64,000 nt of DNA from positions 1,217,687 to 1,281,686 of the forward strand of contig NZ_CP035425.1 of assembly GCF_006740685.1 (NCBI RefSeq), given 5' to 3'. The translations under genes and the position numbers were made by a program. This DNA is from Candidatus Nitrosopumilus sp. SW (GTDB lineage Archaea; Thermoproteota; Nitrososphaeria; Nitrososphaerales; Nitrosopumilaceae). The notes under the pieces are model-generated. The model searched no databases and was not told the DNA's origin. It saw only the letters and a program-made list of their open reading frames with translations. Shown here one piece after another: positions 4,970 through 12,468 of the stretch. Each line of letters starts with the position of its first letter. Position 1 is the stretch's first letter.

Positions 4970-5111
4970 TTTTAAAATAGATTTGAAGGTTTTTCATTCC
5001 GTATGGAATTACACCAACTAGGTTTTACCTACAAACCTTATGACGGCAAATGAAGCACTGAACTCATAAATTTAAACAATGCGAATAAGTCATTTTGAAT
5101 TAACCAAAAAA

Positions 5112-5243
5112 TTATTTTAGATCTTTTCTATTGTAAAATTTCTTTTTTGTAACTGATGCAATAAATTCACACTGATATGAACAATACAATGAATTGTTTT
5201 CCTTGGTTATTCTCCCACAACATGGGCATGCACTGCTTTCCAT
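5112..5243 (-). CDS. Small zinc-finger-type protein (CX2CX11CX3C), second of a tandem pair
   Basis: A 43-residue reading frame with Cys6-X2-Cys9-X11-Cys21-X3-Cys25 (ACPCCG, then YCSYQC) and a Lys-rich tail. This spacing is typical of small treble-clef or zinc-ribbon modules. It lies in the same frame as the ORF at 5247-5381, separated only by a TAA stop and one AAA codon. The two carry identical Cys spacing, so they are either a two-gene pair or one two-finger protein split by a nonsense change. No function is known; nucleic-acid or protein binding is a guess. Confidence 0.55.
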   Translation of the reverse strand: MESSACPCCGRITKENNSLYCSYQCEFIASVTKKKFYNRKDLK

Positions 5244-5246
5244 TTT

Positions 5247-5381
5247 TTACACCATGCTTTTATTTGCACATTCTGATGAGCAATACTCACTTGCACGGTT
5301 TGAGAATTTTTTTTCACACAACTTGCAGACTTTTTCAATACTTTCTTCTTCTGAAAATAATTTTTTACGTATTGTTTTCAT
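5247..5381 (-). CDS. Small zinc-finger-type protein (CX2CX11CX3C), first of a tandem pair
   Basis: A 44-residue frame with a charged N-terminus (MKTIRKKLFSEEES) and Cys19-X2-Cys22-X11-Cys34-X3-Cys38 (VCKLCEKKF, then YCSSEC). The CxxC-aromatic-YCSxxC layout resembles many small zinc-binding domains. A decayed relative of this gene, with about 100 bp of similar upstream DNA, lies at 6111-6197. The repeated spacing in the next ORF and the decayed relative support this being real coding sequence. The role is unknown. Confidence 0.58.
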   Translation of the reverse strand: MKTIRKKLFSEEESIEKVCKLCEKKFSNRASEYCSSECANKSMV

Positions 5382-5503
5382 CGAATTTGTTAATTATTAT
5401 TTTTATTTTAGGAATGATTTACTTGATTTGTGTCAGTCTAAAGTAAACTAGTTGATTTCGTCTTGTAAATAGATAACTCGTTATTTTTTCAAATATTGGA
5501 AAT
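5313..5503. repeat. Imperfect direct repeat, copy 1 (gene 5' part plus upstream region)
   Basis: This segment resembles 6136-6322 in the same orientation. Shared blocks include ACTTGCA/CCTTGCA in the finger coding part, ACGTAT before the start codon, TTATTTTTATTTT, TTGATTTC, TAGATAACT and CAAATATTGGAAAT. It covers the N-terminal coding part of the small zinc-finger gene at 5247-5381 and its promoter side. The copies are about 820 bp apart and flank the micro-ORF pair at 5834-6090. Confidence 0.6.
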
Positions 5504-5739: not shown

Positions 5740-5833
5740 TATTTACTAGTTGACTTTATTTTGTATAAAATCAACTTTTTAATTATTTATTTTGAGAAAT
5801 CCTGCAAGACATCTAATTAACAACGAGTTTGAA

Positions 5834-5929
5834 ATGGATGACACACCAAGTAAACGATGTGATGATTGTAAGAGGATGAGATGCTCTGAAGGATGTATGT
5901 GTGACTGCCATCCAAAACAGGCATGGTAG
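5834..5929 (+). CDS. CX2CX4CX3CXCXCH micro-protein, copy A
   Basis: A 31-residue ORF whose core reads CDDCKRMRCSEGCMCDCH, followed by PKQAW. Three other ORFs in the window share the same six Cys and one His spacing plus the invariant residues D-C, R, G-C and C-D-C-H (7918-8028, 8295-8390, 49538-49648). Conservation across separate loci is strong evidence for real coding. An in-frame TTG at 5792 could add 14 residues. The last codons overlap the ATG of the next ORF (ATGGTAG). The spacing implies metal binding (Zn or Fe-S); no function is known. Confidence 0.72.
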   Translation: MDDTPSKRCDDCKRMRCSEGCMCDCHPKQAW

Positions 5930-6090
5930 GAATAACATTGAACAGTGACTCTAGATCTGAAAATACAGTAGATGAGAAAAATATTGAAGAAGAATTTGAA
6001 CATCTGTTCCCAGAATACGACTATTCTGTAAAATCCTCTTTTCATGAAAAAGACTTGCGAAAGAAAAAGCGTATGAAAACAGTGTACTAG
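5923..6090 (+). CDS. FxHLFPxYD small basic protein, copy 1
   Basis: A 55-residue ORF overlapping the stop of the Cys-rich peptide gene by 7 nt. The middle reads EEFEHLFPEYDYS and the tail is strongly basic (DLRKKKRMKT). A second ORF ending at 8706 shares the F-x-HLFP-x-YD core and the KKR basic tail, and it too lies downstream of a copy of the Cys-rich peptide. The repeated gene order argues for a functional pair. There is no recognised family; the basic tail would suit nucleic-acid contact, which is inference. Confidence 0.62.
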   Translation: MVGITLNSDSRSENTVDEKNIEEEFEHLFPEYDYSVKSSFHEKDLRKKKRMKTVY

Positions 6091-6110
6091 TATATTTTAA
6101 AGAACAGTAT

Positions 6111-6197
6111 ACGTTTGGATGTTTGTGGAATTTTTTATTACAAACCTTGCAAATTCTTTCAAAATGTTTCTCTGTAAATAACCCACGTATCTTTCAT
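6111..6197 (-). pseudogene. Decayed copy of the small zinc-finger gene
   Basis: On the minus strand, one frame gives IRGLFTEKHFERICKVCNKK followed by a YCS block, which lines up with the intact gene at 5247-5381 (IRKKLFSEEESIEKVCKLCEKK, then YCS). The ATG at 6197 is out of frame with this homology, and the last Cys pair is replaced before the frame runs antisense into the FxHLFP gene. It therefore looks like a frameshifted and truncated duplicate. The upstream DNA is also similar (copy 2 of the direct repeat). Confidence 0.5.
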
Positions 6198-6322
6198 GGA
6201 CTTTAACACAATATTATTTTTATTTTGGGAATGAAATTTCTTGATTTGATTCTAGTGGGAAGTTAACCTGTTGATTTCATTCAGATGGTAGATAACTATT
6301 CTATGTCTCAAATATTGGAAAT
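6136..6322. repeat. Imperfect direct repeat, copy 2
   Basis: This is the counterpart of 5313-5503, covering the 5' part of the decayed zinc-finger copy and its upstream region up to CAAATATTGGAAAT. The rest of 6091-6491 is AT-rich, and I see no convincing gene in it besides this copy. Confidence 0.55.
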
Positions 6323-6491
6323 CATGTACATGGTTTTGGAGGTCCAAACATTGGTAAAAAGAAAACGAAAATCCAGTACTGATGAGGAATAACCATAATA
6401 CAGAAACATGTCTCTCTTTTTTGGTCAATGCTTTTCTCTTGAGACGTGTTTCTTTTCTCATTCCTTCTTACCTTTATAGTGAAAATGAGAC

Positions 6492-7917: not shown

Positions 7918-8028
7918 TCATCCCCAATACCTTGAATGACAGTCACAAACACATCCATCTAAACAATGCATTCTAGTACAGTCTTCACATTTTCTTTGAA
8001 CTGTATACCTTCTCTTTTCTTGCGTCAT
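7918..8028 (-). CDS. CX2CX4CX3CXCXCH micro-protein, copy D
   Basis: A 36-residue ORF with core CEDCTRMHCLDGCVCDCH and a short aromatic end (SRYWG), preceded by a basic N-terminus (TQEKRRYTVQRK). The core aligns without gaps with the copies at 5834, 8295 and 49538. It is the first gene of a run of four tiny Cys/His ORFs on this strand, each starting within a few nt of the previous stop. Confidence 0.7.
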   Translation of the reverse strand: MTQEKRRYTVQRKCEDCTRMHCLDGCVCDCHSRYWG

Positions 8029-8294: not shown

Positions 8295-8390
8295 ATGCAA
8301 TATTTACTAAACAAAAGATGCCAAGATTGTATGAGAATCAAATGTACTAAGGGATGTATTTGTGATTGTCATCCTAGGCAATGGTGGTAA
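8295..8390 (+). CDS. CX2CX4CX3CXCXCH micro-protein, copy B
   Basis: A 31-residue ORF with core CQDCMRIKCTKGCICDCH followed by PRQWW, the same length and layout as the copy at 5834 (KRC start of the core, HP after it, aromatic end). All six Cys and the His are kept while the intervening residues vary, as expected for selection on the protein. It lies second in the 8166-9393 gene chain. Confidence 0.73.
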   Translation: MQYLLNKRCQDCMRIKCTKGCICDCHPRQWW

Positions 8391-11367: not shown

Positions 11368-12468
11368 TTAATTTCTAACTTTAAGTGATACTGCAAACGC
11401 ACACACAATAATTACAATTGCAAAATACATCACTGCAACATAGTCAAACAAAAATGCAATTGTTCCTGCAATTACAGGACCTACAACTGTTGCAATTGAC
11501 AATGTTGAACTAAAAATCCCAGTCGAAGTTGAACGTGGATTGTTTTCCATTAGATGAAAGTTTCCTCCAATAAACAAGAATGCCCAAGTTGCGCCAACTA
11601 ATGACATGAATGGCATTGCCATCCACCATTCACTTACAAATGATAATCCTATAAAGACAAATGTTGTACAACCAATTCCTATCTTGAATTTGGTAACATT
11701 TGAAAGATGAATTTTGCTTGCCATTACATTCATCAAGATAAAAGCAGTCATGGTATTTGCTGTGTATACAATTGATATGTGATAAAGTTCTCCGCCCCAT
11801 TTATCTACAATCATTATTGGGAGAATTACCCAAACTGCTGCTGCTCCAATATGTCGTAGTAATAATGACAAGAAAAGAAATTTGTTTTTTGAAATAACTC
11901 TTTTTGTAGTACCAGGCTCTACTTCTTTTTCTTGTTCTGGATTTGGAAGTTTAATTGTAAATAATAATCCCACTACAAATGATGCTGCACTAATCAAGAA
12001 AATTAATTGCAAATCATTTGCAAGTCCAGCTGCTGCAATTCCTGCCATCCATCCTAATGCATGAAATGAGATTACTGTTGCAGCCCTTTTTTTGTCATGA
12101 TTTGCCTCATATGTGTATGCAATCATTGCGGGAATCATTATTCCACTTGCAATTCCCGCTGCAATTCTTACAAGAAAGAACATGGAAAGATCTGTTGCAA
12201 AATAATGCATTCCAAACGCAATTGCACAGCCAATGAACCCAATTCTAATGAACTTGAGCCTTGTTCCTTTTTTGTCAGAGTGCCTGCCAAAATAAATCTC
12301 AGATAAAATTTGGGCAAAACTAAACGAGGCTACCAAAAGCCCTATCTCAAAGACTGATTCTGTGACGCCTTGGGCAATAATGGGCATGAATACAAAGATA
12401 ATGGAGATTCCAGCGTGCTGAAAAAATGTGGCACTACGTACTAGATTGTTTACTTGAACTTTTTGCAT
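11368..12468 (-). CDS. Major facilitator superfamily transporter
   Basis: A 366-residue, roughly 12-helix membrane protein. The motif between helices 2 and 3 (YFGRHSDKKGTRLKF) matches the MFS signature GxxxDRxGRR in loose form. The substrate cannot be told from sequence; drug or metabolite export is typical for this length. It is convergent with the zinc-finger membrane protein. Confidence 0.8.
   Translation of the reverse strand: MQKVQVNNLVRSATFFQHAGISIIFVFMPIIAQGVTESVFEIGLLVASFSFAQILSEIYFGRHSDKKGTRLKFIRIGFIGCAIAFGMHYFATDLSMFFLVRIAAGIASGIMIPAMIAYTYEANHDKKRAATVISFHALGWMAGIAAAGLANDLQLIFLISAASFVVGLLFTIKLPNPEQEKEVEPGTTKRVISKNKFLFLSLLLRHIGAAAVWVILPIMIVDKWGGELYHISIVYTANTMTAFILMNVMASKIHLSNVTKFKIGIGCTTFVFIGLSFVSEWWMAMPFMSLVGATWAFLFIGGNFHLMENNPRSTSTGIFSSTLSIATVVGPVIAGTIAFLFDYVAVMYFAIVIIVCAFAVSLKVRN

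Follow-up and report, generated by a model that had tools for sequence, protein, structure and literature searches.

The minus strand of the genome analyzed here carries, at positions 5112 to 5381 of the window, two small adjacent ORFs that are likely separate genes of one short operon, encoding predicted one-zinc microproteins and probably coupled by termination-reinitiation. This reading is supported by the separate stop and start that each of the six orthologous pairs keeps, conservation of both ORFs as coding sequence, the lack of a common frame in two of the six pairs, and the occurrence of ORF2 without ORF1. The window, the whole stretch of DNA that was analyzed, spans 64 kb; its genome (G000) belongs to Nitrosopumilus and is a single contig of 1.5 Mb. 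Here, we describe the two ORFs and their relatives, weigh other explanations of the layout, and compare the pair with known small zinc-finger proteins and coupled genes.

On the minus strand, the interval reads MKTIRKKLFSEEESIEKVCKLCEKKFSNRASEYCSSECANKSMV, a stop, KMESSACPCCGRITKENNSLYCSYQCEFIASVTKKKFYNRKDLK, and a second stop. ORF1 and ORF2 each contain the motif CX2CX11CX3C once; they share one frame and lie head to tail, joined by TAA-AAA-ATG with three bases between the genes (Table 1). The first-pass annotation had reported two minus-strand ORFs with this same motif, in one frame and with this join, and translation confirms the description exactly. A six-frame count of exact, stop-free CX2CX11CX3C motifs gave three in the window: ORF1, ORF2, and a plus-strand frame at 12103 that is unrelated to either. 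In 60 dinucleotide shuffles of the window, the mean was 0.08 motifs and the maximum was 1, with no adjacent pair in any shuffle; thus, we take the tandem finger pair to be real. A scan with looser spacing added two frames, both resembling non-coding translations, and no tRNA genes were found in the 64-kb window. Separately, three tiny ORFs at 5792-5929 (plus strand), 7918-8028 (minus), and 8295-8390 (plus) have a common CxxCxRxxCxxGCxCDCHxRxxx-like pattern without a Pfam match, and constitute another local family of cysteine-rich microproteins.

Table 1. Features in and around the finger pair (positions are those of the window; strand left empty where none applies).
Feature	Position	Strand	Description
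ORF1	5381-5247	-	44 aa, one-finger microprotein CKLC-X11-CSSEC, basic N-terminal tail ending KKLF
ORF2	5243-5112	-	43 aa, one-finger microprotein CPCC-X11-CSYQC, conserved basic C-terminal helix EFIASVTKKKFYNRKDLK
Junction	5244-5253	-	GGTG 5253-5250, TAA 5249-5247, AAA spacer, ORF2 ATG 5243-5241
Palindrome	5441-5458		imperfect, 18 bp, AAATCAACTAGTTTACTT (read on -), ~60-75 bp upstream of ORF1 ATG
Decayed copy	6071-6345	-	tandem copy of promoter and ORF1, upstream of the live pair in G000
68-bp element	4983-5051	- (probable transcription)	non-coding, TATA-like TTTAAAT at 5076-5070

Both ORFs look coding and appear, from their substitution patterns, to be under purifying selection. Pairwise differences summed by codon position are 268/225/335 among ORF1 orthologues and 172/189/323 among ORF2 relatives, so that third positions change most in both. 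Of 15 pairs per ORF, dS was computable in 8 for ORF1 and 11 for ORF2 (the others are saturated), and dN is lower than dS in every one of these. ORF2 is the better conserved of the two.

We compared the pair across 95 Nitrosopumilus genomes. An ORF1 profile found near full-length matches (>74 bits) in six (G000, G002, G007, G064, G102, and G106), and ORF2 directly follows ORF1 in all six; ORF2 relatives at E <= 0.001 are present in 15 of the 95. On one flank, gene clusters 3, 4, 0, and 1 are common to G000 and G002, and on the other a cluster-5 gene is common to G000 and G064; relative to cluster 1, the pair is inverted in G000 versus G002. Each full pair keeps a separate stop and a separate start, while a common frame is kept in four: G000 (TAA, gap of 3 nt), G007 (TAA, gap of 9), G064 (TGA, gap of 9, with GTG as the ORF2 start), and G102 (TAA, gap of 9). 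The pairs of G002 (TGATG, overlap of 1) and G106 (TAA, gap of 14; locus L066 is the same contig and was counted once) are out of frame. Two other tandem finger pairs bring the in-frame total to 5/8: in G036 the genes overlap at ATGA and differ in frame, and in G088 TTG directly follows TAA and the frame is kept; the pairs of G013 and G107 look decayed and were left out of both the six and the eight.

The first gene is preceded by a palindrome in all six full pairs, starting 74-82 nt before the ORF1 start (measured at its TCA) among the orthologues. In an alignment of up to 180 bp before ORF1 from these pairs, its 18 columns are the best conserved, with a mean pairwise identity of 0.81 versus 0.48 for the other columns. 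This conservation suggests that it is a probable operator, and between the palindrome and the ORF1 start there is a putative TATA-like sequence rich in A and T. Further upstream, the decayed copy shares 71% identity with the live copy over 203 bp (E 6e-21) and includes a palindrome-like AAATCAACAGGTTAACTT at 6277-6260; its frame is broken right after the start, and in its finger (6181-6095, ERICKVCNKKFHKHPNVYCSLKY) the last zinc cysteine has become tyrosine. Palindromes resembling AAGTCAACTAGTTKACTT were also seen at 5741-5754 and 6260-6277. We dropped a genome-wide palindrome regulon because matches are close to a reversed control: no genome-wide enrichment was seen in G000 (5 matches versus 3 for the control), and in an unsummed table of counts many genomes are at or under the control.

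On the other side of the pair lies a non-coding element of 68 bp, present in 32 of the 95 genus genomes and often multicopy. Its 30 aligned copies (loci L145-L174) all have a CCGT/ACGG helix, one pair varies among G-C, T-A, and A-T, and in most copies TTTGCCGT is preceded at ~23 nt by a TTTA(A/T)AT-like box. With respect to the finger pair, the element of G000 has the opposite orientation to those of G002 and G007. No Rfam family reached its gathering score in the window, and the sub-threshold match near the element scored 15 bits versus 127. The element looks like an undescribed small RNA.

ORF2 also occurs by itself. Relatives of ORF2 without a full ORF1 are found in G016, G104, and G105, and the copies in G016 and one of those in G104 have their own palindrome upstream; in G088, ORF2 is preceded by a finger gene of another type. 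These occurrences indicate that ORF2 is an independent unit. Upstream of ORF2 in G016 and one G104 copy (L078 and L081) are the short frames MEKKKRRKKLFNKDEDD and MTGKKIHKKIFHTDDNDDD, which resemble only the KKLF-type N-terminal tail of ORF1 and lack a finger. An order-wide search matched ORF2 in 16 of 400 genomes; one match, at full score, is in another genus (G334), and no ORF1 was seen upstream of it in the stretch examined (L186). A viral origin of ORF2 was dropped, as the search used found no relative in viral contigs.

The first-pass annotation had suggested a duplicated finger gene kept as two proteins. Two proteins are what the relatives have, with stop and start in 6/6 pairs and constraint on both halves, but the duplication is less clear: BLASTP gives no alignment of ORF1 with ORF2, and their profiles match over 24 residues centered on the cysteines. 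Given the missing BLASTP alignment, a recent duplication that derived one finger from the other is not supported. The profile match covers the finger core only, so the two may still share an old ancestor. A widespread single-finger microprotein of Nitrosopumilus and its relatives, MRTIRECRHCGREFYSMKDEFCS... (L062, L056, L053, and others), likely belongs to the core of this finger class.

The junction offers a site for reinitiation. Scored against the canonical Shine-Dalgarno sequence, the GGTG inside the end of ORF1 is Shine-Dalgarno-like and lies 6 nt before the ORF2 ATG. Four of the six pairs have a 4-nt match 6-8 nt before the ORF2 start, compared with 19% of all ATG/GTG/TTG triplets in the window, while G102 has a match of only 3 nt and G007 has no recognizable motif; the contrast is modest, since ORF1 starts are themselves mixed (three of the six have a 4-nt match, and a fourth has one of 5 nt). 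The accessible portion of PMC10666635 takes gaps of -8 to +10 nt as predictive of termination-reinitiation. Five of our six pairs fall in this range (-1 to +9 nt), and G106 (14 nt) falls outside, so termination-reinitiation is the natural reading. According to the same portion of PMC10666635, such gene pairs are enriched for subunits of one complex, which suggests by analogy that the ORF1 and ORF2 microproteins may act together.

The layout could instead reflect two independent neighboring genes, each with its own start and with translation uncoupled. In G016 and G104, ORF2 does stand alone and has a palindrome of its own upstream, and the Shine-Dalgarno-like motif before it in four of the six pairs could work by itself. 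However, gaps of 3 and -1 nt are too small for a promoter, and strong coupling at such distances is described in the accessible part of PMC10666635 for Haloferax and E. coli, though not for this lineage; altogether, we regard uncoupled genes as unlikely.

In the coupled operon that we favor, a promoter with the conserved palindromic site upstream would give one mRNA. Ribosomes would translate ORF1 and stop at TAA, and GGUG in the last ORF1 codons would help them restart 3 nt on, at the ORF2 AUG. The outcome would be two treble-clef-like, one-zinc microproteins of 43-44 aa in linked amounts, which may serve as small regulators or adaptors binding nucleic acid or protein. A regulatory or adaptor role is plausible by analogy, because Brz is a microprotein of this kind that can regulate transcription (PMC2253796, accessible portion) and, in Haloferax, 12 of 16 deletion mutants had phenotypes (PMC6562870, accessible portion). 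A more specific version, which we consider quite improbable, is that the two unequal one-finger microproteins form a cotranslational heterodimer that binds the AAGTCAACTAGTTKACTT palindrome at its own promoter and autoregulates its own synthesis; if true, this would be a minimal two-gene autoregulated zinc-finger switch.

It was also proposed that a two-finger gene was recently split by a nonsense mutation, leaving a downstream half that is start-rescued or dying. The single frame, the 3-nt spacer, and the identical finger spacing in G000 are what such a split would leave, and an earlier suggestion was to check orthologues for the stop or for a fused two-finger protein. All six full pairs have a TAA or TGA stop, and the 77 finger ORFs of the loci retrieved include no two-finger protein (one artefact, the repetitive frame L177, was set aside; the tandem-spacing scan took frames up to 120 aa, whereas the 77-ORF search had no length limit). 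The first-pass annotation held that separate promoters or a lone finger in orthologues would argue against a split, and relatives provide such a case: in G016 and one G104 copy, ORF2 has no full ORF1 before it and a palindrome of its own upstream. Both halves still appear constrained, and the differing frames of G002 and G106 are explained neither by a recent split nor by conserved readthrough. The relatives thus have two separate genes and not one broken by a stop, which makes the arrangement ordinary, and we consider a split gene very improbable.

Readthrough of the stop was the third option of the first-pass annotation. Programmed readthrough of TAA, giving a minor two-finger fusion alongside the single-finger proteins, is just as improbable. 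The frame is kept in four of six orthologous pairs and also in G088, but these counts are near chance (binomial ~0.10 for 4/6 and ~0.09 for 5/8 against 1/3, in genomes that are related and not independent) and thus do not point to selection for a shared frame. In two pairs the genes differ in frame, neither spacer residues (K, KVR, GNV, and RDN in the four in-frame orthologues) nor stops (TAA, TAA, TGA, and TAA) are conserved, and the available reinitiation site already explains the layout.

A cheap comparison of orthologue frames and stops was thus enough to close the broken-gene and readthrough readings. Ammonia-oxidizing archaea gain a conserved pair of zinc-finger microproteins with a well-defined putative operator, and the pair is a compact place for testing translational coupling in these organisms; we found no such test from this archaeal lineage in the open-access literature searched. 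More useful leads than the operon itself are the conserved palindrome and the small-RNA-like element beside it.

Comparison with known families begins with the fold. Predicted models of ORF2 (43 residues) and ORF1 (44 residues) have mean pLDDT of 74.5 and 74.4, respectively; each shows a short hairpin together with a helix starting at the second cysteine pair (residues 23-37 in ORF2), and the predicted fold is treble-clef-like. Foldseek matches had E >= 0.86 throughout, the top rows being YacG (ORF2) and the LMBL2 FCS finger (ORF1); ribosomal chains among the ORF2 rows are presumably archaeal L24e-like. The ORF2-YacG match is weak (Foldseek E 0.86, TM 0.59/0.55; VIA-align Z 4.3, rmsd 3.7, 41 aligned), and with mean pLDDT at 74-75 the fold matches are a hint only. 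Pfam and NCBIfam gave only sub-threshold matches for ORF1 and ORF2: YacG NF002362 (ORF2 at 16 bits versus a curated cut-off of 79), PF04640 PLATZ (17.6 bits versus a gathering score of 25, with weak matches for all six ORF1 members), and PF09889 DUF2116, a probable treble clef (one of six ORF1 members, E 0.012, with the G000 ORF1 absent among the matches listed). A sequence search of the PDB gave only short or repeated-finger chance matches. The treble clefs of YacG, the FCS finger, DUF2116, and L24e resemble ORF1 and ORF2 in having CX2C ... CX3C and a helix that begins with the second pair, but every family and fold match is below cut-off.

The definition of CPxCG-related small zinc fingers in the accessible part of PMC2253796 includes a length of <100 aa and two Cys/His pairs 7-40 residues apart. 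ORF1 and ORF2 have this length and spacing (44 and 43 aa, with CX2C and CX3C 11 apart). ORF2 also has the CPxCG pattern (CPCCG), with CG kept in 13/13 aligned ORF2 relatives, while ORF1 (CKLCE) lacks a CPxCG-like pattern, which among the six orthologues only G007 (CSICG) has. Like the archaeal CPxCG proteins, Brz of Halobacterium and the zinc-finger u-proteins of Haloferax, ORF1 and ORF2 are <70 aa with one finger from two cysteine pairs; they differ in the pattern missing from ORF1 and in a second pair that is CX3C in both; the likeness is at the level of pattern. Both are predicted to bind zinc, although, according to the available portion of PMC11241148, the metal was not bound by five of the 14 C(P)XCG proteins purified there.

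As a gene pair, ORF1-ORF2 resembles the coupled pairs described in the accessible parts of PMC6728339 and PMC10666635 in having an overlap or very short gap and a Shine-Dalgarno-like motif within the upstream gene; it differs in its spacing of +3 instead of the common -4 or -1, in two unusually short genes, and in that coupling here is predicted. It also resembles the brz-brb operon of Halobacterium salinarum, in which a tiny zinc-finger gene shares one transcript with a second small gene downstream of it; the accessible portion of PMC3184054 also describes other zinc-finger/basic-protein gene pairs that overlap by 7 and 9 bp. As described there, the brz-brb partner is a small basic protein without a finger, whereas in the ORF1-ORF2 pair both proteins carry one.
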